This document shows positions 2,209 through 38,553 of a stretch of 64,000 nt of DNA, piece by piece. The first letter of the stretch is position 1. Each line of letters begins with the position of its first letter. The notes under the pieces are model-generated. The model did no database searches. It had not been told where the DNA came from and saw nothing but the letters and a program-made list of their open reading frames with translations. Position numbers and translations under genes: made by a program. Source of the stretch: Flavobacteriales bacterium (GTDB lineage: Bacteria > Bacteroidota > Bacteroidia > Flavobacteriales_G > JALEGO01); contig JAHDEG010000007.1 of assembly GCA_020628935.1 (NCBI GenBank), positions 111,878 through 175,877 of the forward strand. The letters are read 5' to 3'.

Positions 2209-3497
2209 TTTACGACCAATTAAAAAACAAAGAAGCAAAATTAGCAGTTGTAGGATTAGGTTATGTAGGATTGCCTATCGCACTTGAATTTGCCAGAAAA
2301 GTTAAAGTTTTAGGCTTTGACATTAATGCTGAACGTGTAGAGTTAATGAAAAATAACATTGACCCAAGTAAAGAATTAGATTCATCCGAATTTGAAGGAA
2401 GAGACATCGAATTTTCGGCAGATATAAACGATCTTAAATCAGCTAACTTCTTTGTTGTTGCTGTTCCAACCCCTATTGATGAATACAATACTCCAAACCT
2501 AAGACCACTACTATCTGCCTCTAAAACTGTAGGTCAAGCCCTAAAAAAAGGAGATTATGTTGTTTTTGAATCAACAGTTTATCCTGGTTGTACTGAAGAT
2601 GATTGTGTGCCAATTTTAGAAAAAGAATCTGGCTTAACATTCAGAAAAGATTTTATGGTAGGATACTCACCCGAAAGAATTAATCCGGGCGATAAAGAAC
2701 GCAAAATTGTAGATATCAAAAAAGTTGTTTCAGGATGTTGTGATACTTCACTTGAAGAAATTGCTAAAACATATGAACTAATCATAAAAGCTGGTGTACA
2801 CCGTGCCCCAACAATTAAAGTTGCTGAAGCCGCTAAAATTATAGAAAACACCCAAAGAGATGTAAACATTGCATTAATGAATGAACTTTCTATTATTTTT
2901 AATAGAATGGGAGTTAACACTTATGATGTTTTAGAAGCTGCTGGTACTAAATGGAACTTTTTAGGTTTTAAACCTGGTTTAGTTGGTGGACACTGCATTG
3001 GTGTTGACCCTTATTACTTAACACACAAAGCAGAGCAATTTGGTTATCATGCTAAAATTATAAATTCAGGGCGATTTGTAAACGATAGCATGGGCTTTTA
3101 TGTAGCAAAACAAACTGTCAAAAAAATGCTTGCTTTAGGCAAAGCATTAAGAGACTCTAAAGTATTGGTTATGGGAGCTACATTTAAAGAAGATGTTTCT
3201 GACATAAGAAACTCAAAAGTTGCCGATGTTATAAAAGAACTGCAATCTTACCAAGTAAATGTAGAAGTAGTAGATCCTCACGCTAGCTCAGAAGAATTAC
3301 AACATGAGTATGGTTTTGGACTTGTTGAAAAAGCAGGTACTAATTACGATGCTGTTATTGTAGCTGTTAATCACGAAGAGTACGCTAATAAAGATGAAGC
3401 TTACTTTAAAACCATATTGTCTAGTGATGGTATTTTTGTGGATATTAAAGGAATATTTAAAGGAAAAATTAAAGATTTAACGTATTGGAGCTTATAA
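2205..3497 (+). CDS. UDP-N-acetylhexosamine 6-dehydrogenase, WbpO/TviB type
   Basis: 430-residue UDP-sugar dehydrogenase that oxidises C6 of UDP-GlcNAc or UDP-GalNAc to the uronic acid using two NAD+. It shows the NAD-binding motif VVGLGYVGLP (residues 15-24), ESTVYPGCTED, and the catalytic Cys264 in GGHCIGVDPYYL. The C-terminal UDP-binding domain contains VLVMGATFKEDVSDIRNSK. The KPGLVGGHC context and length resemble WbpO/TviB more than WecC. It overlaps the 3-dehydrogenase by 4 bp and is the last gene of the operon; a ~100-bp gap with a promoter for the OmpA gene follows. It would supply the uronic acid used by the two genes upstream. Confidence 0.88.
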   Translation: MIYDQLKNKEAKLAVVGLGYVGLPIALEFARKVKVLGFDINAERVELMKNNIDPSKELDSSEFEGRDIEFSADINDLKSANFFVVAVPTPIDEYNTPNLRPLLSASKTVGQALKKGDYVVFESTVYPGCTEDDCVPILEKESGLTFRKDFMVGYSPERINPGDKERKIVDIKKVVSGCCDTSLEEIAKTYELIIKAGVHRAPTIKVAEAAKIIENTQRDVNIALMNELSIIFNRMGVNTYDVLEAAGTKWNFLGFKPGLVGGHCIGVDPYYLTHKAEQFGYHAKIINSGRFVNDSMGFYVAKQTVKKMLALGKALRDSKVLVMGATFKEDVSDIRNSKVADVIKELQSYQVNVEVVDPHASSEELQHEYGFGLVEKAGTNYDAVIVAVNHEEYANKDEAYFKTILSSDGIFVDIKGIFKGKIKDLTYWSL

Positions 3498-8820: not shown

Positions 8821-11157
8821 TTAAAACTTAAAGTTATATGTTACTGTAGGAATTATAGAAAACAGATACGTTCTAATGGCCTGAGTTTGACCAGGGTTAT
8901 CGTCATCTTCCTCAAAAGTTATTGAGAAAGGGTTTTTTCTTGCATACATATTGTACACAGATAAGTTCCAACTGCTTTTAAACCTTCTTCCTTCATTCTT
9001 TTTAGGGTCTAAGGTTACTGAAAAATCGCTTCTATGGTAGTCAGGTATTCGTGCTCCATTTCGTTCGGAGTACACCGGCACTACTTGACCTTGATATGTA
9101 AACTTACCTGTTGGAGCTGTTAAAGGTAACCCTGTATTATAAACCCAGGTAAAGCCTAAACTCCACTGAGGATTGATGTCATATGCTAAAACAATAGATA
9201 AATTATGAGGCCTATCAAAATTGGCAACATATTCTTTGCCATCGTTAATCTCGTCAATCGTTCTTAAGGTTCTTGATAGAGTATAGCTAATCCAACCGGT
9301 AAATTTACCTTGTTGTTTTCTTGCAAATAGCTCTAAACCATAAGCTCTTGCAGAACCTATTCGTACTTCGCCCTCAAGTTTAGAGTTAAAAATAAGCTGA
9401 GCATTATCTTTAAAATCTATTGCGTTTGTAACTTCCTTATAGTACACTTCAGCTGAGGTCTCTAAGGTGTTAGAATTAAAGTTTCTGAAATAACCCAATG
9501 CTACTTGATCAGCAATTCTTGGCTTAATATTAGAACTTGATGGAAACCAAACATCTAGTGGTGTGCCTCCGGTTGAATTATTCGCTAAATGTAAGTATTG
9601 AAACATTCTGTTGTATGACATCTTTACTGAACTAAATTCATCCAACGTATATTTCATACCTAACCTCGGCTCTAAACCCATGTAAGTATTATAAAACTCT
9701 CCTTTTCCGTAAGTTTTGAAGGGTTCATCCTCCCTTAAATCATAATTTTCATCGTACTGATAAACGGTATCAATACCTATGTTCTGAAAAATAGAAAGTC
9801 GCATTCCATAATCAATTGTAAAGCGAGACCCAATTTTTTGCTCATTACTCAAATATATTCCGCTTTCTAATGCAAACTTTTTAGGCAATTGCAGTGAATT
9901 AAAATTTTCGTTTCCATCAAGAGGTTCGAATGTGGCAGGATTAAAATCTAAGAAGGTAGATTGAAACCCAAAACGAATAGTATTAGACGTATTAGCATAC
10001 AATGTATAATCGTTTTTTATAGAATAATTTATAATATCACTATTCCACGCAAATGCCTGAATACCATCTGGTATACCTAGCTCATAATTGTAATTACTGT
10101 ATATTAAAGATACATTTGAAAATAGTTTTTCAGAAAAAAGGTGATTCCACCTTGTGGTAATTGTTGTATTACCCCAGCCCAGTTTAAAAGCGTCAGCAAT
10201 ATTTAAGATGTCTCTACCAAAATAACCTGAAACAAATAGTCTATCCTTATCACTTAATTTATAATTAAACTTTCCATTTAAATCATAAAAATAAAGAGCA
10301 CTATTTTTTAAATCTTCGTTTTTACTAAGGTTCAAAAACAAATCGGCATAGGTTCTTCTACCTGAAATAATGAATGAACTTTTATCCTTCACAATTGGAG
10401 CTTCAATGGTAAGACGACTAGAAATTAATCCTATCCCGCCTGAAACCGAAAACCGTTTTGAATTCCCCTCCTTCATCCTTACATCTAAAACAGAACTTAA
10501 CCTACCACCATATTTTGCAGGTATGCCACCCTTATAAAGCTTGGCGTCTTTTATAGCATCTTGATTAAAAACCGAGAAAAATCCTAATAAATGTGACGAG
10601 TTAAAAACAGTAGCTTCATCTAACAACACCAAGTTTTGATCTGCTCCTCCTCCTCTAACAAAAAAACCAGTACTCCCCTCTCCTGAACTCTGTACACCAG
10701 GTAGTAATTGTATTGCTCTAATAACATCAACTTCGCCCATTAAAGCAGGTATTTTTTTTATTGTTTCAATATTCATTTCAACAGAGCTCATACTAACAGA
10801 CTCTACATTAGTATTACCCCTTTCGGCTGTAATCTCTACTTCTTGAAGTGTTTGAGAAGAATTACTAATCTCAACACTAATTTGCTGATTTTGATCTAAC
10901 ACAACTCGTTTCTCAATATCAGAATAACCAATAAATGAATAAACAATATCATACTCACCTTTGGCAAGTGTTAATGAATAAAACCCATATATATTAGTAA
11001 CGGCTCCTTCAGTTGTATTCTTTACCCTTACAGTAGCGCCTATCATTTCTTCACCATTGTCTAAATCAGTTACATAACCGCTAATTGTAAACTTATCTTG
11101 ACTAAACAAATTATTCAGTGAGGGTAAAAACAGAAATAAACACAAATAAAACCGCAT
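8821..11157 (-). CDS. TonB-dependent receptor with carboxypeptidase-like regulatory domain
   Basis: 778 residues: signal peptide (about 1-19), a CarboxypepD_reg-like beta-sandwich (about 22-105; YVTDLDNGEEMIGATVRVKN), a plug domain (about 125-230; GVQSSGEGSTGFFVRGGGAD and DEATVFNSSHLLGFFSVFN) and a 22-strand-type barrel ending TVTYNFKF with a terminal Phe. Such receptors import a large ligand across the outer membrane using TonB energy. The DUF4249 lipoprotein follows after 2 bp. A perfect TAnnTTTG box lies 25 bp upstream of the ATG. There is no SusD homologue, so this is not a polysaccharide-utilisation pair. The substrate cannot be told from sequence. Confidence 0.93.
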   Translation of the reverse strand: MRFYLCLFLFLPSLNNLFSQDKFTISGYVTDLDNGEEMIGATVRVKNTTEGAVTNIYGFYSLTLAKGEYDIVYSFIGYSDIEKRVVLDQNQQISVEISNSSQTLQEVEITAERGNTNVESVSMSSVEMNIETIKKIPALMGEVDVIRAIQLLPGVQSSGEGSTGFFVRGGGADQNLVLLDEATVFNSSHLLGFFSVFNQDAIKDAKLYKGGIPAKYGGRLSSVLDVRMKEGNSKRFSVSGGIGLISSRLTIEAPIVKDKSSFIISGRRTYADLFLNLSKNEDLKNSALYFYDLNGKFNYKLSDKDRLFVSGYFGRDILNIADAFKLGWGNTTITTRWNHLFSEKLFSNVSLIYSNYNYELGIPDGIQAFAWNSDIINYSIKNDYTLYANTSNTIRFGFQSTFLDFNPATFEPLDGNENFNSLQLPKKFALESGIYLSNEQKIGSRFTIDYGMRLSIFQNIGIDTVYQYDENYDLREDEPFKTYGKGEFYNTYMGLEPRLGMKYTLDEFSSVKMSYNRMFQYLHLANNSTGGTPLDVWFPSSSNIKPRIADQVALGYFRNFNSNTLETSAEVYYKEVTNAIDFKDNAQLIFNSKLEGEVRIGSARAYGLELFARKQQGKFTGWISYTLSRTLRTIDEINDGKEYVANFDRPHNLSIVLAYDINPQWSLGFTWVYNTGLPLTAPTGKFTYQGQVVPVYSERNGARIPDYHRSDFSVTLDPKKNEGRRFKSSWNLSVYNMYARKNPFSITFEEDDDNPGQTQAIRTYLFSIIPTVTYNFKF

Positions 11158-12265: not shown

Positions 12266-13868
12266 TTTTTTTAGACTTATAACTTTAATCGTAGTGTTAT
12301 TTATAGCACAAGCACCAAATTTAGAAGCACAATCTTATAATTTCTCGAGTTCATCACAACAGTACTACGATCAAGTAGAAAAACTAAGAACATTGCTAAG
12401 AGATATAAGTATGTATTATGTTGATACAGCTAATATTGAAGAGCTCACAGAAAATATGATTGTGAGAACACTTAAAGACTTAGATCCACATTCGGTTTAC
12501 ATCCCAAAAGACGAGGTTAAAAAAGCAAACGAGCAACTAGAAGGCAAATTTGAAGGAATTGGTATACAATTTAATATTCTAAATGACACTCTGTTAGTTG
12601 TTGCCCCTATTATAGGAGGCCCTTCTGAAAAACTAGGGATTTTATCTGGAGATAAAATTATCAAAATTGAAGATGAAAACGTTGCTGGTATAGGCTTGAA
12701 GAATAGTGATGTTGTAAAAAAACTAAGAGGCGAAAAAGGATCTGTAGTAAATGTTTCAATAAAACGTTTTGGAGAAAAAAAATTGATTGAATACGCGATA
12801 GAGAGAGACAAAATCCCCATTTATAGTGTGGATGCAGCGTACATGGCAGATTCAATAACTGGTTACATTAAGTTAAGTCGGTTTGCACGAACAACCATGA
12901 TTGAATTGCAAGCTGAAATAACAAAATTAAAAAGAGCGGGCATGCAAAGCTTAGTTCTTGACTTAACAGGAAACACGGGAGGATATTTACATATAGCAAA
13001 CCAGTTATCCGATCAGTTTTTACAAGCTGACGAACTTATCGTTTACACAAAAGGAAAATACTTCCCAAAAAGATCCCACTTTGCTACTGCTAAAGGGATG
13101 TTTGAACAAGGAAAACTCGCAATTATGATTGATGCTGGTTCTGCTTCTGCTAGTGAAATTGTTTCTGGAGCTGTTCAAGATTGGGATAGAGGAATAATTG
13201 TTGGAAGAAGATCTTTTGGTAAAGGATTAGTTCAAAAACCATTTGAATTTCCAGACTCATCAGTAATGAGACTAACTATACAAAGATACTACACTCCATC
13301 TGGTAGATGTATTCAAAAACCTTATAAAGACTATAAAGATGAATATACACATAGATATGAGAGTGGGGAACTATTTGAAAGAGACAGTATTAAAGTAGAT
13401 GACTCTCTAATTTACAAAACTGATCATGGAAGAGACGTTTACGGAGCCGGAGGAATTATACCTGACGTATTTGTTCCCCTTGACACAACATTAAGCTCGA
13501 AATATTACAGAGACATTCTTAGAAAAGGCCTTTTATACAGCTACAGTCTTAATTACTTAGATAAAAACCGTAAAAATGTAGAAGAAAAGTACACATCTGT
13601 TCAACTCTTTGACATTGGTTTTAATATTACTGATGAACATTTAGAAGAATTTATTAGTTATGCTGAAGATAAAGGGGTTGAAAGAAATGATGATGATATT
13701 AAAATATCTAACAAAGCTTTAAAACAATACCTGAAGGCTTACATTGCAAGAGGAATGTTTGGTGTAGGAGGGTTTTATTACATCTCAAATCAAATTGACC
13801 CTATATATACCAAGGCATTTGAAAGCCTTAATAACGGTGAATATGAAAAACTTAATTTAAGAAAATAA
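12240..13868 (+). CDS. C-terminal processing peptidase (S41, Prc/CtpA family)
   Basis: 542-residue exported serine protease. A signal peptide (NFFRLITLIVVLFIAQAP) precedes a PDZ domain (about 90-175; GIGIQFNILNDTLLV and GILSGDKIIKIEDENV). The S41 catalytic domain (about 190-370) has the nucleophile in GSASASE near residue 303 and the general-base Lys in RRSFGKGLVQ near 328. This is a Ser-Lys dyad peptidase that trims or degrades periplasmic proteins from their C-termini. I chose ATG 12240; TTG codons at 12234 and 12246 are alternatives. It overlaps the MORN gene by 26 bp and shares the A of TAATG with the next gene. Confidence 0.93.
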   Translation: MVLKFQKNNFFRLITLIVVLFIAQAPNLEAQSYNFSSSSQQYYDQVEKLRTLLRDISMYYVDTANIEELTENMIVRTLKDLDPHSVYIPKDEVKKANEQLEGKFEGIGIQFNILNDTLLVVAPIIGGPSEKLGILSGDKIIKIEDENVAGIGLKNSDVVKKLRGEKGSVVNVSIKRFGEKKLIEYAIERDKIPIYSVDAAYMADSITGYIKLSRFARTTMIELQAEITKLKRAGMQSLVLDLTGNTGGYLHIANQLSDQFLQADELIVYTKGKYFPKRSHFATAKGMFEQGKLAIMIDAGSASASEIVSGAVQDWDRGIIVGRRSFGKGLVQKPFEFPDSSVMRLTIQRYYTPSGRCIQKPYKDYKDEYTHRYESGELFERDSIKVDDSLIYKTDHGRDVYGAGGIIPDVFVPLDTTLSSKYYRDILRKGLLYSYSLNYLDKNRKNVEEKYTSVQLFDIGFNITDEHLEEFISYAEDKGVERNDDDIKISNKALKQYLKAYIARGMFGVGGFYYISNQIDPIYTKAFESLNNGEYEKLNLRK

Positions 13869-20398: not shown

Positions 20399-20752
20399 AT
20401 GCATATAGACCAAATACGAAATTACTGCCTGAGCTTAAAAGGCGTTACAGAACACCTTCCTTTTGGGCCAGATACGCTTACTTTTAAAGTAATGGATAAA
20501 ATGTTTTGCCTAGTTAATATCGAAAAAAACGAGTTTGTAAACCTAAAATGTGATCCTGAGGAAGCACAAGAGTTAAGAGAACAATATTCAGAAGTTCAAC
20601 CAGGTTACCACATGAGCAAAAAACATTGGAATAGCGTTTATTACAACCAAAGTTTATCGGACGAATTTATTATAGAACTCATCAACCATTCATACCAAAT
20701 TGTGGTATTAGGATTAACAAAAAAACTACAACAACAACTTAAAGAAATGTAA
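20399..20752 (+). CDS. MmcQ/YjbR family protein
   Basis: 117 residues matching the whole MmcQ/YjbR (CyaY-like fold) family. It begins IRNYCLSLKGVTEHLPFG and contains KMFCLVNI, VNLKCDPEEAQELRE and PGYHMSKKHWNSVYY. The family is often labelled DNA-binding, but no reaction is established. It stands alone on the plus strand between the glycosyltransferase operon and a structured intergenic repeat that begins 5 bp after its stop and may serve as its 3' end. Confidence 0.88.
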   Translation: MHIDQIRNYCLSLKGVTEHLPFGPDTLTFKVMDKMFCLVNIEKNEFVNLKCDPEEAQELREQYSEVQPGYHMSKKHWNSVYYNQSLSDEFIIELINHSYQIVVLGLTKKLQQQLKEM

Positions 20753-20757
20753 CTATT

Positions 20758-20912
20758 GGCGTATCCCTTTGGGGCGTGCTCTACGTTAAAGTTTAACTGT
20801 TTTAGCTTAATAAATGTAATCTATTAAACACGAGCTTCGCTTGTCGCTGTGTTTAATAAACATTTATAAAAGCCAAACCAATTAAAGCTACCACTACGAT
20901 CACTTACGCAGG
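20758..20912 (+). repeat. Structured intergenic repeat, family A, copy 1
   Basis: A ~155-bp hairpin element. It starts GGCGTA-CCC-TTT-GGGG-CGTGC and ends AAAGCTACCACTACG..CACTTACGCA, so its termini form a short GCGTA/TACGC inverted repeat. The core stem is ATAAATGT (20810-20817) with ACATTTAT (20860-20867), then ATTAAACAC (20823-20831) with GTGTTTAAT (20849-20857). The apex reads CGAGCTTC-GCT-TGTCGCT (20831-20848). A second copy with the same ends and apex but a different stem lies inverted at 35400-35560. No open frame is present. It may be a REP-like DNA repeat or a structured 3' RNA. Confidence 0.85.
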
Positions 20913-20924
20913 AAATGAAGTATT

Positions 20925-21425
20925 CTATGCCATATTAGTTAACCAACTGTCATAAATGAGTTGTTTCCAATTGTTATTATAATCGGCCAATGTGGAAACG
21001 GAGTTATTATAAATGAGTGTTTCTTGTGGGATATTTTTAGCTTTTAACTGGTTTATTAAATCGTGCATATTATACACTTCAATTATACCATTATTTTCTG
21101 TGGCAACCTGTAAACGATTTGTGAGCGACATAGAAAATGCTTGCTCTAAATGCTTAATTACCTTAACTGAAGCATCGATAGAACAGCCTGTTGCATTGTC
21201 TGCTGCTGCGTTAACACTTAATACTATAAAATGATTTTTAATGATCTGAAAAGCAGATTGCAAAGGAATACCGTGAGCTTGCCAATTGCTTGTAAATGAA
21301 ACTAATTGTTGCTTTGCATACGCCACTTGTTCAGTTGTTAGCTGACTTTCTGCTTGATAAACCCATACTTTTGAAGAGGGGCTAAATGATTCAAATGTGT
21401 TTTGCGTTGTTTTTTGAGCTATCAT
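20925..21425 (-). CDS. Conserved Bacteroidota protein, often mis-labelled 'ABC transporter ATPase'
   Basis: 166 residues. It matches a short Bacteroidota-specific family recognised by SKVWVYQAESQLTTEQ, FTSNWQAHGIPLQSAF and NATGCSIDASVKVIKHLEQ. There is no Walker A or signature motif, so the common ABC-ATPase name is not supported. It overlaps the Fe-S protein gene by 4 bp and ends the four-gene MCE/Fe-S operon, which suggests a role with that Fe-S module. Function unknown; the conserved GCSID Cys is the most likely functional residue. Confidence 0.82.
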   Translation of the reverse strand: MIAQKTTQNTFESFSPSSKVWVYQAESQLTTEQVAYAKQQLVSFTSNWQAHGIPLQSAFQIIKNHFIVLSVNAAADNATGCSIDASVKVIKHLEQAFSMSLTNRLQVATENNGIIEVYNMHDLINQLKAKNIPQETLIYNNSVSTLADYNNNWKQLIYDSWLTNMA

Positions 21426-32533: not shown

Positions 32534-32697
32534 AACATCACAGCCCCGATAGCACTGAATAGCTTTTAAAATGAATTACTTTGGTGAAACAAACTTAAAA
32601 CAGCGACTAAAAGAAGCTCGTTTTAGGTTTTGATAAACCTGTAATTCACTTTAAAACTAGAAAGGAATAGCGGGAAACAGCTTCTAATAAAAAACAA
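32534..32697 (-). repeat. Structured intergenic repeat, related family B
   Basis: A long imperfect hairpin: TTTTAAAATGAATTAC (32564-32579) pairs with GTAATTCACTTTAAAA (32641-32656), 15 of 16 positions. It is bordered by AGCCCCGATAG (32542-32552) and GGAATAGCGGG (32664-32674). The apex AGCGAC-TAAAA-GAAGCTCG (32602-32620) matches the reverse complement of the family A apex at 20831-20848 and the plus strand of the copy at 35462-35479. The ACTGAATAGCTTTT flank resembles the family A tail. I assign the minus strand because family A is read from its GC-rich head. It lies between the DUF433 gene and the glyS promoter. No ORF. Confidence 0.75.
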
Positions 32698-34306: not shown

Positions 34307-35122
34307 TTGCAAAATTGCTTTAAATACTTTTTGCTAGCTACCCTAAGCCTATCTTTTTTAAAAGTTAAGACTCAAAATTGTGAAGCTACTAATACCTTTT
34401 TTAACTCAGGTGAGCGTATTAGCTATGAAGTATTTTATCATTGGGGTTTTATTTGGGTTGAAGCCGGTTCTGCAAGCTTTACAACTGATACAGCTACTTA
34501 TAATGGTGAAAAAGTATTTCATTTAGTAGGAGCGGGAAAAAACTACCCCAAATGGGATTGGATGTACAAAATAAACGACAAATACGAGTCGTTTGCCAAT
34601 TTAAATGACCTTAAACCCTATTATTTTAAGAGAAATATTAATGAAGGAGGTGTAAAGTATTTTGAAGAATACACCTTTAACTCATCGGCACAAACCATTG
34701 AAACCCGACTAAAAAAAGATGGAACTACTAAAACAAACCTGGTCGAATTTTCACCCTGTACATACGACCCAATTTCTTTGGTATATTACGCAAGATGTAT
34801 AGATTTTAGCACATATAGCGAAGATGATAAAATACCCTTAAATATGATTATTGATGGCGAGGTTTATGAGACGTATTTAAGATACCAAGGGAAAGAAACC
34901 ATAGAGGTTAAAAATCAGGGCAAGTATAAAACCCTAAAATTTAGTGCATTACTTATTGAAGGATCTTTGTTTAAAGGCGGAGAAGGAATGACAGTTTGGG
35001 TGAGTGACGATAAAAATAAAATTCCGGTACAAATTGAATCTGAAATTTTGGTAGGATCAGTAAATATAGCTTTAACAAATGCTGAAGGATTAAAACACCC
35101 TGTTACTTCAAAAATAGATTAA
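34307..35122 (+). CDS. DUF3108 periplasmic protein
   Basis: 271 residues with a signal peptide (about 1-25) and a DUF3108 domain from about residue 30: FFNSGERISYEVFYHWGFIWVEA is family-typical (cut here: ERISYEVFYHWGF). The start is TTG at 34307; the nearby ATG at 34302 is out of frame. It is a beta-rich exported protein of unknown function, common in Bacteroidota. It starts 12 bp after glyS and is likely co-transcribed with it. Confidence 0.85.
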   Translation: MQNCFKYFLLATLSLSFLKVKTQNCEATNTFFNSGERISYEVFYHWGFIWVEAGSASFTTDTATYNGEKVFHLVGAGKNYPKWDWMYKINDKYESFANLNDLKPYYFKRNINEGGVKYFEEYTFNSSAQTIETRLKKDGTTKTNLVEFSPCTYDPISLVYYARCIDFSTYSEDDKIPLNMIIDGEVYETYLRYQGKETIEVKNQGKYKTLKFSALLIEGSLFKGGEGMTVWVSDDKNKIPVQIESEILVGSVNIALTNAEGLKHPVTSKID

Positions 35123-35399: not shown

Positions 35400-35560
35400 A
35401 CGTGAGTAACCGCAGTGATAGCTTTTGCTTATTTAGCCACTATAAATGTATAAGTAGGGCAAGCGACATGAGAAGCTCGCCCTACTTATTTTATATTTTT
35501 TGGCTAAAAAAGTAAACCTTTAACGGAGTGCACGCCCCCATTTTCTGGGGGGCACGCATA
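35400..35560 (-). repeat. Structured intergenic repeat, family A, copy 2 (inverted)
   Basis: The minus strand reads ATGCGTGCC...GGGGGCGTGCACTCCGTTAAAGG at its start and AAAGCTATCACTGCGGTTACTCACGT at its end, matching copy 1 at 20758-20912. The core stem is ATAAGTAGGGCAAGC (35450-35464) with GCTCGCCCTACTTAT (35475-35489), 14 of 15 paired plus a G-U. An outer stem TTTAGCCA/TGGCTAAA is also paired. The apex, on the minus strand, is CGAGCTTC-TCA-TGTCGCT. The stem sequence is unlike copy 1, but both are self-complementary. Confidence 0.87.
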
Positions 35561-35571
35561 TCTTTAAAAAA

Positions 35572-38514
35572 CTATCTTTTTTTAATAAACTGAATATGCT
35601 TGTTTATACTTTCTGAACGTATTTGCAATAGATAATTACCATCGGCCAAAGTACTCGTATTAACGGTATTAAGCTCGCCTACTTGGTTTTTCTTAACGTG
35701 AACCAACTCACCTACTGCATTAAGTATATTATACGTTACGGGCTCAGATGAGGGATAATCTATAAACTGAATATTTAAAATATCTTTGGCAGGATTAGGG
35801 TAAACTGCTATTAAAACCGCATCGTTAATTGAACCAACTGATGATGCTGAACTTACAATTACCTGTGCCTGATCGGTGGCTTGGCATGAACCTGTATAAC
35901 CTGTAAGCTGCACGTTATATAAACCAGGATGCGGGTAAATCTTGGTAGCAAACGGGTTGCTAGAGGTTGTTCCATCACCAAAATCCCACTCATAAGTATC
36001 TGCATTTGAAGTGTATGTAAAATTAACTGGCTGACCTAAGCCCGGGTAAAATGTATTGGCCGAGATAGAAACAAACGGCATTTCATCTACCTGAATATAA
36101 GTAGGTATGCTAGCGCTTGTACAATTGCCTGAGCTCAAAACAACACTTATTGTTTCATCTTGTAGTGGAGCAATAGTAATTTGCTGGGTTGTTGCTCCGT
36201 TTGACCATGCATAATTATAACCAGGATTAGCTGATAAAGTAGTTGTTTCTCCTTCGCATATAAAGGCATCGCCTTCTATAATAACTCCAGTAATTTCGGT
36301 AACTACATCAATCACTGCATTTGCATAACCAATACAACCGGCCACATCTGTAACGGTAAGTGACATAACCATATCTGTTGTTGGGGTTAACGTCATTTCT
36401 TGAGAGGTTTCTCCACTTGCCCATAAATAATCTGTTGCTATATGTGAGGTTAATGTGACCGATTCGCCAGCACATACTTTCACTACTTCAGGACTAATAA
36501 AAGCCGTATCTGGTCTGCTTACATCAATGGTTATACTCGCGTTATCTAAGCAACCGCTTGAGTCACTGGCTACCAAAGTAAATGTAGTTTGACTACTTGG
36601 GCTCACCTGAATACTTTGTCCGTTTTCTCCCGTTGACCATAGATAGTCTTTTGCTGGTGAACCTATTAACGTTACCGATGCTCCATCACAAACGGTAAGG
36701 TTACTAGCTGTAATGTTAGATTCAAATACGTAAGAATCAACAAAAACGGAATCAATTGATGTACAACCTGCAGAATTGGTTAACGAAACATAATAAGTTG
36801 TAGGCGACTGCGGACTAACTTCTATTTCAGAACTTGTTTGACTGGTAGACCACAAGTAATCGCCTGTACCTTGAGCAGATAAATCTATGGCTCCGCCAAC
36901 ACATAAAGCTACTTCTGTTTGATCTAGTGTTAATGTAGGAAATGTGTCTACCTCAATTGGACGATTAAATACCATTTCGCAACCAATAAGTGTATTTACG
37001 GTAAGCTGTAAATCAAATGACGTGTATACCGGAAATGATACGGTAGGAGTTGTTGCGCCTGTATTCCAGCTATAACTTAAACCACCTACTGCTGTAAATG
37101 ATGCTTGCTCTCCATAGCAAAAGGTAGAAGCTGAAGATGTTAAGCTAACATTTGGAGTAGGAAGCTTGATAAATGTTTTAACTATAAGGTTATTAAAAGG
37201 ATTGCCATCTAATATTCCATTATTTAAGTTATTAGTATCAACGTATGCTACAAATGTGTGTAAACCAACTGACAAATTATTTAATGAAATTGATAAAGTA
37301 GTATCTTCATTTGATTGCAATAAACCATTAATTGGTAATGTAGATATTGGGCCGCCATCTAAAGAGTATGTCATAACAGCCGATGTTAAATCTTCTGAGC
37401 CCGCATTTCTTAGTGTTATGTTTACACCTATAGAATCTACACATAAGGTATCTTTTAAACCATCTTGCGAAACTAAAGCATCATATTCTACTGACGGAGA
37501 ACATTTATTACCATCTAACAAACCACTTCTTATAGTTGTTAGTGCAGCTCGCATTCTTTCTATTTGATTAGGAGTAAAATCTGATACACAATTACGGTTA
37601 TTGTAATCCATATAGTTCTCCAAATGTGTATTTGGGCACGGGCCGTTATTACAACCTGTTCCTGTACTGGTAGGAGGTGTATCGCAAACACGATCTCCGT
37701 CCGTTGTACAATCATTTTCACTACACGATTGACCTTGAAATGTATGGAATAAATTAAGGTAATGACCAACTTCGTGCGTTAACACTCTTCCATCATCTGT
37801 GGCAGACCACAGAGAATAACCATTGGCACCTGTTGGGTCGTTTCCGGTTGCACTATATAATTGTACTATACCATCAACATCAGGTCCTGCACCGGGGAAA
37901 TAAGCATATCCTTGAACTCCACCTGTATAGCCACCGCCTAAAGGATCTCCCTGCCCCCTAATTTGTTCTACCACCCATACATTCATGTATTGAGTATTAT
38001 CCCATTTACTTAAAGCTTTGCAAGCTGCATCATTTGCATTTGTAATTCCAGTAGAGCCATACCCCGAAGTTGAGCTGGCATCTACCCTTAGTATACCCGT
38101 AGAAGGGTTTCCTTGAGGATCAACTGACGCTAAACAGAATTCTATTTCTGAGTCAGATCCCATTGGGCCAGACTGCGCTATTCCGCCATCCTCGTTAGTA
38201 TATCTAAAATCTCTATTTAATGCTGCAACTGCAGATAAAACCTGATCGTCTGAAATATTAGAACCAGTACCAACTGCTTGTCCGGTATGAAGGATATGAA
38301 AAACAACAGGAATTGTTAAAACACCGCCTGTAAGCTTGGAATTTAAACCAGCTTGAATTGCTCGCTCATTTGCTGCTATTCTTTTTTGATAGTTTATATC
38401 TGTTTGCATTAAACGATTATGATGCTCATCAAAATCACAAACGGAAGCCGTATTTTGACCATTTGATAGTGCTGAAACACTAATCGCCAAAAAAGTAAAG
38501 TATAGTTTTTTCAT
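35572..38514 (-). CDS. M43-type (cytophagalysin-like) zinc metalloprotease with Ig-like repeats and T9SS type A signal
   Basis: 980 residues. It has a signal peptide (1-20), a pappalysin/cytophagalysin protease domain with HEVGHYLNLFH (His247, Glu248, His251, His257) and a Met-turn in HLENYMDYNN. About five tandem ~80-residue Ig-like repeats follow (each with YLWSTGE-type signature), then a PKD domain (YEWDFGDGTTSSNP), then a type A T9SS C-terminal signal (VYPNPAKDILNIQF ... NKHIQFIKKR). It is secreted and probably attached to the cell surface. I chose the ATG at 38514, which gives the signal peptide, over an in-frame start at 38553. It is downstream of the choice-of-anchor-L gene. Confidence 0.9.
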   Translation of the reverse strand: MKKLYFTFLAISVSALSNGQNTASVCDFDEHHNRLMQTDINYQKRIAANERAIQAGLNSKLTGGVLTIPVVFHILHTGQAVGTGSNISDDQVLSAVAALNRDFRYTNEDGGIAQSGPMGSDSEIEFCLASVDPQGNPSTGILRVDASSTSGYGSTGITNANDAACKALSKWDNTQYMNVWVVEQIRGQGDPLGGGYTGGVQGYAYFPGAGPDVDGIVQLYSATGNDPTGANGYSLWSATDDGRVLTHEVGHYLNLFHTFQGQSCSENDCTTDGDRVCDTPPTSTGTGCNNGPCPNTHLENYMDYNNRNCVSDFTPNQIERMRAALTTIRSGLLDGNKCSPSVEYDALVSQDGLKDTLCVDSIGVNITLRNAGSEDLTSAVMTYSLDGGPISTLPINGLLQSNEDTTLSISLNNLSVGLHTFVAYVDTNNLNNGILDGNPFNNLIVKTFIKLPTPNVSLTSSASTFCYGEQASFTAVGGLSYSWNTGATTPTVSFPVYTSFDLQLTVNTLIGCEMVFNRPIEVDTFPTLTLDQTEVALCVGGAIDLSAQGTGDYLWSTSQTSSEIEVSPQSPTTYYVSLTNSAGCTSIDSVFVDSYVFESNITASNLTVCDGASVTLIGSPAKDYLWSTGENGQSIQVSPSSQTTFTLVASDSSGCLDNASITIDVSRPDTAFISPEVVKVCAGESVTLTSHIATDYLWASGETSQEMTLTPTTDMVMSLTVTDVAGCIGYANAVIDVVTEITGVIIEGDAFICEGETTTLSANPGYNYAWSNGATTQQITIAPLQDETISVVLSSGNCTSASIPTYIQVDEMPFVSISANTFYPGLGQPVNFTYTSNADTYEWDFGDGTTSSNPFATKIYPHPGLYNVQLTGYTGSCQATDQAQVIVSSASSVGSINDAVLIAVYPNPAKDILNIQFIDYPSSEPVTYNILNAVGELVHVKKNQVGELNTVNTSTLADGNYLLQIRSESINKHIQFIKKR

Positions 38515-38553
38515 GTTTATAGATTTAAAAAATGAATAACAATTTGAATACAA

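Follow-up and report, generated by a model that had tools for sequence, protein, structure and literature searches.

Two inverted hairpin repeats of a Flavobacteriales genome as probable members of a REP-like, class-wide family of Bacteroidia that includes Flavo-1

The question raised by this locus is what kind of element recurs, in opposite orientations, between ordinary genes of a Flavobacteriales genome. An earlier note on the 64,000-nucleotide stretch of DNA analysed here (the window) had described two copies of a structured repeat, and direct reading of the sequence places both where they had been reported, with the head, tail and apex given for them. Copy A1 (20758-20912, minus strand) is documented by sequence reading, by the covariance model R1 described below and by a sub-threshold Flavo-1 match; copy A2, the inverted second copy of the earlier note (35400-35560, plus strand), by sequence reading, model R1 and its fold z score. 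They share a head (GCGT..CCC..GGGGCGTGC..CGTTAAAG..TTTTAGC), a tail (AAAGCTAyCACTrCGrTyACTyACG) and the apex CGAGCTTCnnnTGTCGCT, which was located by exact pattern in A1 (AGCGACAAGCGAAGCTCG, 20831-20848, minus) and in A2 (AGCGACATGAGAAGCTCG, 35462-35479, plus). The stems in between differ in sequence between the two copies (ATTAAACAC/GTGTTTAAT versus ATAAGTAGGGC/GCCCTACTTAT) and both pair. The informative strand, picked by Rfam and by the G-T/A-C bias considered below, is the reverse of the one first described and starts with GCGTAAGTGATCG. Both copies are of one type, marked by a long stem, GCGT...ACGC ends and a second hairpin; in A1, the second hairpin and the outer inverted end (GCACGCCCC-aaa-GGGATACGCC) align with model R1 at 20759-20780 (minus), and the fold of A2 contains a long hairpin corresponding to it.

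The repeat is far from limited to these two sites. With the A1 head in its Flavo-1-strand reading (GCGTAAGTGATCGTAGTGG) as a starting point, approximately 20 other copies of 86-98 nt were found in the same genome, and the consensus of 20 own copies reads GCGTnAGGGATTGnARYGGaaAGCCC, apex, GGACTTGtAnYGtAAAGCCYGACC, second hairpin, GGGnACGCCC. Model R1, built from 20 other copies of the genome with A1 and A2 left out, matched 43 sites of the 2.1 Mb genome and recovered both reported copies end to end, A1 at 20909-20759 on the minus strand (30.3 bits, E 2.4e-5) and A2 at 35400-35557 on the plus strand (24.3 bits, E 7.6e-4). Because a model made only from other copies finds both at full length, their resemblance exceeds chance, and A1 and A2 are long-stem members of the R1 family. 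Together with matches of covariance models in other genomes, these further copies also bear out the earlier suggestion that Bacteroidota carry a repeat with GCGT...ACGC ends.

A third copy in the window, F3 (32538-32681, plus strand), lies between divergent genes and was identified by Rfam and by the apex pattern; like many other copies of the genome, it is absent from the earlier note. Its long stem carries the apex of A1 and A2 (AGCGAC-n-GAAGCTCG; exact pattern AGCGACTAAAAGAAGCTCG at 32602-32620, plus), and its ends, AGCCCCGAT ... AGCGGGAAACAGC, are of the Flavo-1 type. An exact pattern search of the 2.13-Mb genome found the apex at just three sites, those of A1, F3 and A2. All three fall inside 15 kb, and copies with a relaxed apex are scattered. 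In the part of the genome searched, the relaxed apex AGCGAY-n-GARGCTC returned three further long-stem copies, which share with an adjoining copy on contig C15 the Flavo-1 ends TAGCCC ... GGAAACAGCTC. On C15, around 232.4-232.6 kb, a pair of Flavo-1 copies in back-to-back arrangement on opposite strands is separated by about 12 bases (L374:9460-9560, minus, and 9572-9715, plus), which resembles a BIME/REPIN pair.

The Flavo-1 RNA was described by Weinberg et al. 2010 (PMC2864571) and is held in Rfam as RF01705, with a gathering score of 42 bits. This cut-off was passed by F3 (45.6 bits), L016 (42.7 bits) and L374 (51.5 and 43.3 bits), where L016 and the 43.3-bit match, L374:9572-9715, are relaxed-apex copies. 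Compact Flavobacterium copies reached 31-35 bits on the same strand. A1 remained below the cut-off (20768-20918, minus, 28.5 bits; E 3.8e-4 for a search of 351 bases), and the whole-window scan lists no RF01705 match at A2. One other Rfam hit in the window, to a Rickettsia sRNA (13119-13234, minus, 31.4 of 60 bits), is sub-threshold, lies inside a reading frame and is probably due to chance.

The kinship with Flavo-1 is also visible in the fold. On the folding strand, GCGTnAGGGATnGnARYGG...ACGCCC, an outer 4-bp helix surrounds an irregular hairpin composed of helices of 2-3 bp at fixed spacing, and copies of the GCGT type add a second short hairpin. For the 20 own copies, RNAalifold gave (((.((...((...(((.(( as compared with <<<-<<---<<---<<<<-- in the Flavo-1 structure line. 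The repeat and Flavo-1 agree in strand, in body and in the spacing of their helices (3 bp, 1, 2 bp, 3, 2 bp, 3, 3-4 bp). A1 and A2 differ from Flavo-1 matches in their GCGT...ACGC ends and second hairpin, both of which those matches lack, and thus appear to unite a Flavo-1-like long stem with the features of the GCGT type. From the alignment and the shared spacing we infer one superfamily with two end-types, of which Flavo-1 would be one. The earlier note could not say whether the repeat had been described; the same superfamily already includes an Rfam entry, although Flavo-1 is filed as an sRNA and the repeat studied here behaves as a dispersed repeat.

Several lines of evidence indicate that the fold is maintained. 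The A2 fold was better than all of its shuffles (z -6.6, 0/200 as good), and that of A1 was weaker (z -1.9, 11/200). Across the 20 own copies, double-sided change was observed in 18 of 22 predicted pairs, and 93.8% of paired cells were pairing, compared with 72.9% after shuffling and 27-46% with the partner slid. Among 58 copies from other genomes the figure rose to 21 of 22 pairs, in an alignment that was fitted to the model and hence favours this result. Six long-stem copies of the genome have 55 of 60 stem cells paired, and the true assortment of arms alone reaches 55 among the 720 possible ones (mean 33). The stems therefore do pair once aligned, as the first description of compensatory change had implied, and that part of the claim, a structure maintained through compensatory change, is supported. 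Covariation alone is no proof of selection on an RNA. At an orthologous Flavobacterium site, L326 keeps the body but carries an apical hairpin that is different throughout, so that both arms can evidently change in one event through replacement of the apical hairpin as a block. If arms are exchangeable in this way, covariation between copies need not reflect stepwise compensation. A tandem G-A motif at the apex was considered as a general feature and rejected, being present in 15 of 20 own copies but in only 15 of 58 others.

The pairs also carry information on the strand that folds. G-T cells outnumber A-C cells by 16 to 2 in the own copies and by 14 to 4 in those of other genomes, an excess which points to a functional fold on one strand, the Flavo-1 strand. 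As structure prediction itself somewhat favours G-T, we regard these counts as supportive and not conclusive. A one-strand fold with strong covariation, together with the RF01705 matches at or above the cut-off (F3, L016 and L374), is what would be seen if the element were a structured RNA, either a Flavo-1-type sRNA or a UTR element, whose folded strand is transcribed and whose covariation records selection on the RNA fold. We consider this unlikely. Flanking genes of 42 own copies are convergent in 18 cases, divergent in nine and co-directional in 15, a mixture that fits no single transcript; no promoter excess was found near A1 and A2; and dozens of copies per genome contrast with zero in sister species. 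In the transcriptome of F. psychrophilum, Flavo-1 matches are sense or antisense indifferently and often lie outside transcribed regions, with no consistent sense in the RNA-seq data (PMC9723704). Among the papers found to mention Flavo-1 by name or accession, one gives expression data. The mixed gene orientation and the inconsistent transcription published (PMC9723704) both argue against a dedicated RNA, and the earlier alternative of a structured RNA or a DNA hairpin now leans towards DNA. Counting against the DNA reading, covariation and tolerance of G-T would be equally expected of an RNA.

The genomic placement of the copies is consistent with a DNA element. Forty-three of 44 own copies are intergenic, often 5-17 bp from a stop codon, and the tail side faces a gene 3' end in 28 of 43. 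A1 lies between convergent neighbours (20399-20752, plus, YjbR family, and 20925-21425, minus), and A2 between a gene at 34307-35122 (plus) and the 3' end of one at 35572-38553 (minus). A bias towards one replication strand was weak (31/44, p 0.0096, for sites that are not independent), and the skew of genome G177 was unusable. Copies situated just past stop codons and between convergent genes might be expected of a bound or structural DNA site that was selected in place and is immobile now, such as a site for gyrase or an IHF-like protein, a chromosome-organising site, a 3'-end stabiliser of mRNA or a two-way terminator. The U32-peptidase/purT interval, which holds a copy conserved in several Flavobacterium species, speaks for such a site as well. 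We judge it improbable nonetheless: no T-run terminator (a G+C-rich stem followed by a T run) was found at A2, A1 has one weak terminator-like match at shuffle level, and copy number ranges from zero to tens among relatives. Presence also differs at individual homologous sites, with a copy in the split metH gene interval of L181 that is missing from the homologous region of L243, and another in an intergenic region of L290 that is missing from its homologue in L329; both comparisons involve distant species, in which the exact junctions and the target are unreadable.

Of 247 genomes sampled across the class, 97 have matches at E<=1e-6, as do 54 of 142 genera, even though just 17 candidates were scored per genome. 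Named carriers include Flavobacterium, Algibacter, Pedobacter, Mucilaginibacter, Niabella, Ohtaekwangia and Adhaeribacter. Copy number is patchy, with six copies versus none in one sister genus, and 13, 10, 3, 2 and many zeros in another. The element is also carried by plasmids of Bacteroidales (69 records from Bacteroides, Phocaeicola and Parabacteroides), 36 of which were typed as conjugative. One Microviridae record has a copy in a short non-coding gap with every model pair intact; this well-paired copy (L405:22-89, MG945641) lies near the expected complementary-strand signals. One of two phage-collection records retrieved with the Flavobacterium consensus contains the same element and the same JAB-domain neighbour as Bacteroides plasmids. 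Conjugative plasmids and the intact Microviridae copy would suit an initiation site on single-stranded DNA, resembling a primosome-assembly site, that serves such replicons and is scattered in chromosomes. This explanation is very unlikely, because the phage evidence consists of a single Microviridae record, the head pattern is shared by just 12 contigs in the whole viral collection, and chromosomal copies are far more numerous and are located at gene 3' ends. The count of 12 viral contigs likewise led us to reject the repeat as a phage element.

Dispersal raises the matter of what moves the repeat. The only Y1_Tnp gene of the genome encodes an IS200-like protein and is situated approximately 470 bp from a copy. 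Despite this proximity, a mobiliser of the Y1 or RAYT type encoded in cis was rejected after the association failed in two sets of 30 loci. None of 30 RAYT loci of the order has a copy within 1.5 kb; most of the best-scoring among them bear the YIH-NP motif, which has been assigned to TnpAY1 subclass 2.6 (PMC6006769). Of 30 Y1 loci taken from 24 genomes rich in copies, only three have a copy within 1.5 kb, and in the examined ones of these three, GACCCC/GGGGTC or ACCCC/GGGGT palindromes surround the transposase gene. Three copy-rich genomes (G176, G049 and G055) contain no Y1_Tnp, and 80 named loci include one Y1 gene, 2.9 kb away. A RAYT or Y1 transposase with its gene next to the copies is thus ruled out as the putative mobiliser. 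As a separate observation, the IS200-like Y1 transposases of L199, L202 and L203 are flanked on both sides by GACCCC/GGGGTC or ACCCC/GGGGT palindromes, arrayed in L199 and L203, and these are candidates for a distinct Bacteroidia REP family that has a transposase of its own.

Among known systems, REP and BIME elements offer a close parallel. They too are imperfect hairpins specific to one strand, dispersed between genes, often placed at the 3' ends of genes and sometimes arranged in inverted pairs. The present repeat differs in its length of about 90-160 nt, in a consensus (GCGTnAGGG ... ACGCCC) that lacks the GT[AG]G foot and, unlike REP/RAYT systems, in having no transposase gene flanked by copies (0/30 RAYT loci). 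It is REP-like and not a canonical REP, with neither a GTAG foot nor an associated Y1/RAYT transposase. TnpAY1 genes of subclass 2.6 in Bacteroidetes have been reported beside 'atypical secondary structures' (PMC6006769), with which the repeat may overlap in other lineages. CGTC-tagged REPs, some of them in Bacteroidetes, are 20-40 bp long and were likewise reported without a dedicated flanking transposase (PMC3733652); our repeat carries no CGTC tag and is larger as an element and as a structure.

Integron attC sites form another point of comparison, with a folded single strand, conserved ends and a variable central stem. Their core boxes are RYYYAAC ... GTTRRRY at the outer ends. Were the repeat an attC, an integrase would use its folded single strand to move gene cassettes, in keeping with the variable apical stem and with some opposite-strand pairs that enclose one gene (genome G263). 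We give this idea hardly any credence, for the ends GCGTTAGGG ... AACGCCC show the reversed box order (terminal GTT...AAC as against AAC...GTT in attC), own copies occur dispersed between ordinary genes and not in cassette arrays, and the neighbours of 80 named copies from many genera show no recurrent gene family. Gene cassettes were rejected on the same grounds for the opposite-strand pairs of G263 and G275, as own copies flank ordinary genes and have no recurring neighbour family. Two of the pairs enclose a single accessory gene between copies in opposite orientation (L186 of G263, 2249-3277, and L187, 2242-3111); one such gene sits between an apparent hpd and an apparent hmgA, and the pairs are possible composite units.

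Taken as a whole, the evidence makes A1 and A2 probable members of a REP-like family whose DNA hairpins are dispersed between genes across the class Bacteroidia and which has Flavo-1 as one branch. The REP-like, single-stranded-DNA reading follows from the dispersal, the intergenic placement, the folding of one strand, the combination of conserved ends with a free apical stem, and the presence on transferable plasmids. Mechanistically, the folded strand may act as single-stranded DNA when exposed in replication or transfer. A putative enzyme would copy or move it in trans, and might recognise the conserved ends and the mismatched helices, with any apical stem accepted as long as it pairs. Spread of this kind and a role in the host need not be opposed, as the two coexist in the REPs of E. 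coli.

A further-reaching proposal, which we put forward tentatively and regard as possible but doubtful, is that Flavo-1 and the GCGT...ACGC repeats are both single-stranded-DNA mobile hairpins spread by a non-Y1 enzyme, and that an entry of an RNA database is really a DNA element. If so, an Rfam 'sRNA' family would become a class-wide DNA repeat, and false RNA annotations could be removed from many Bacteroidota genomes. The fixed helix spacing and the free apical stems would mark the parts needed by the putative reader, and the question would become which factor copies such a hairpin repeat where the genome lacks a Y1 transposase.
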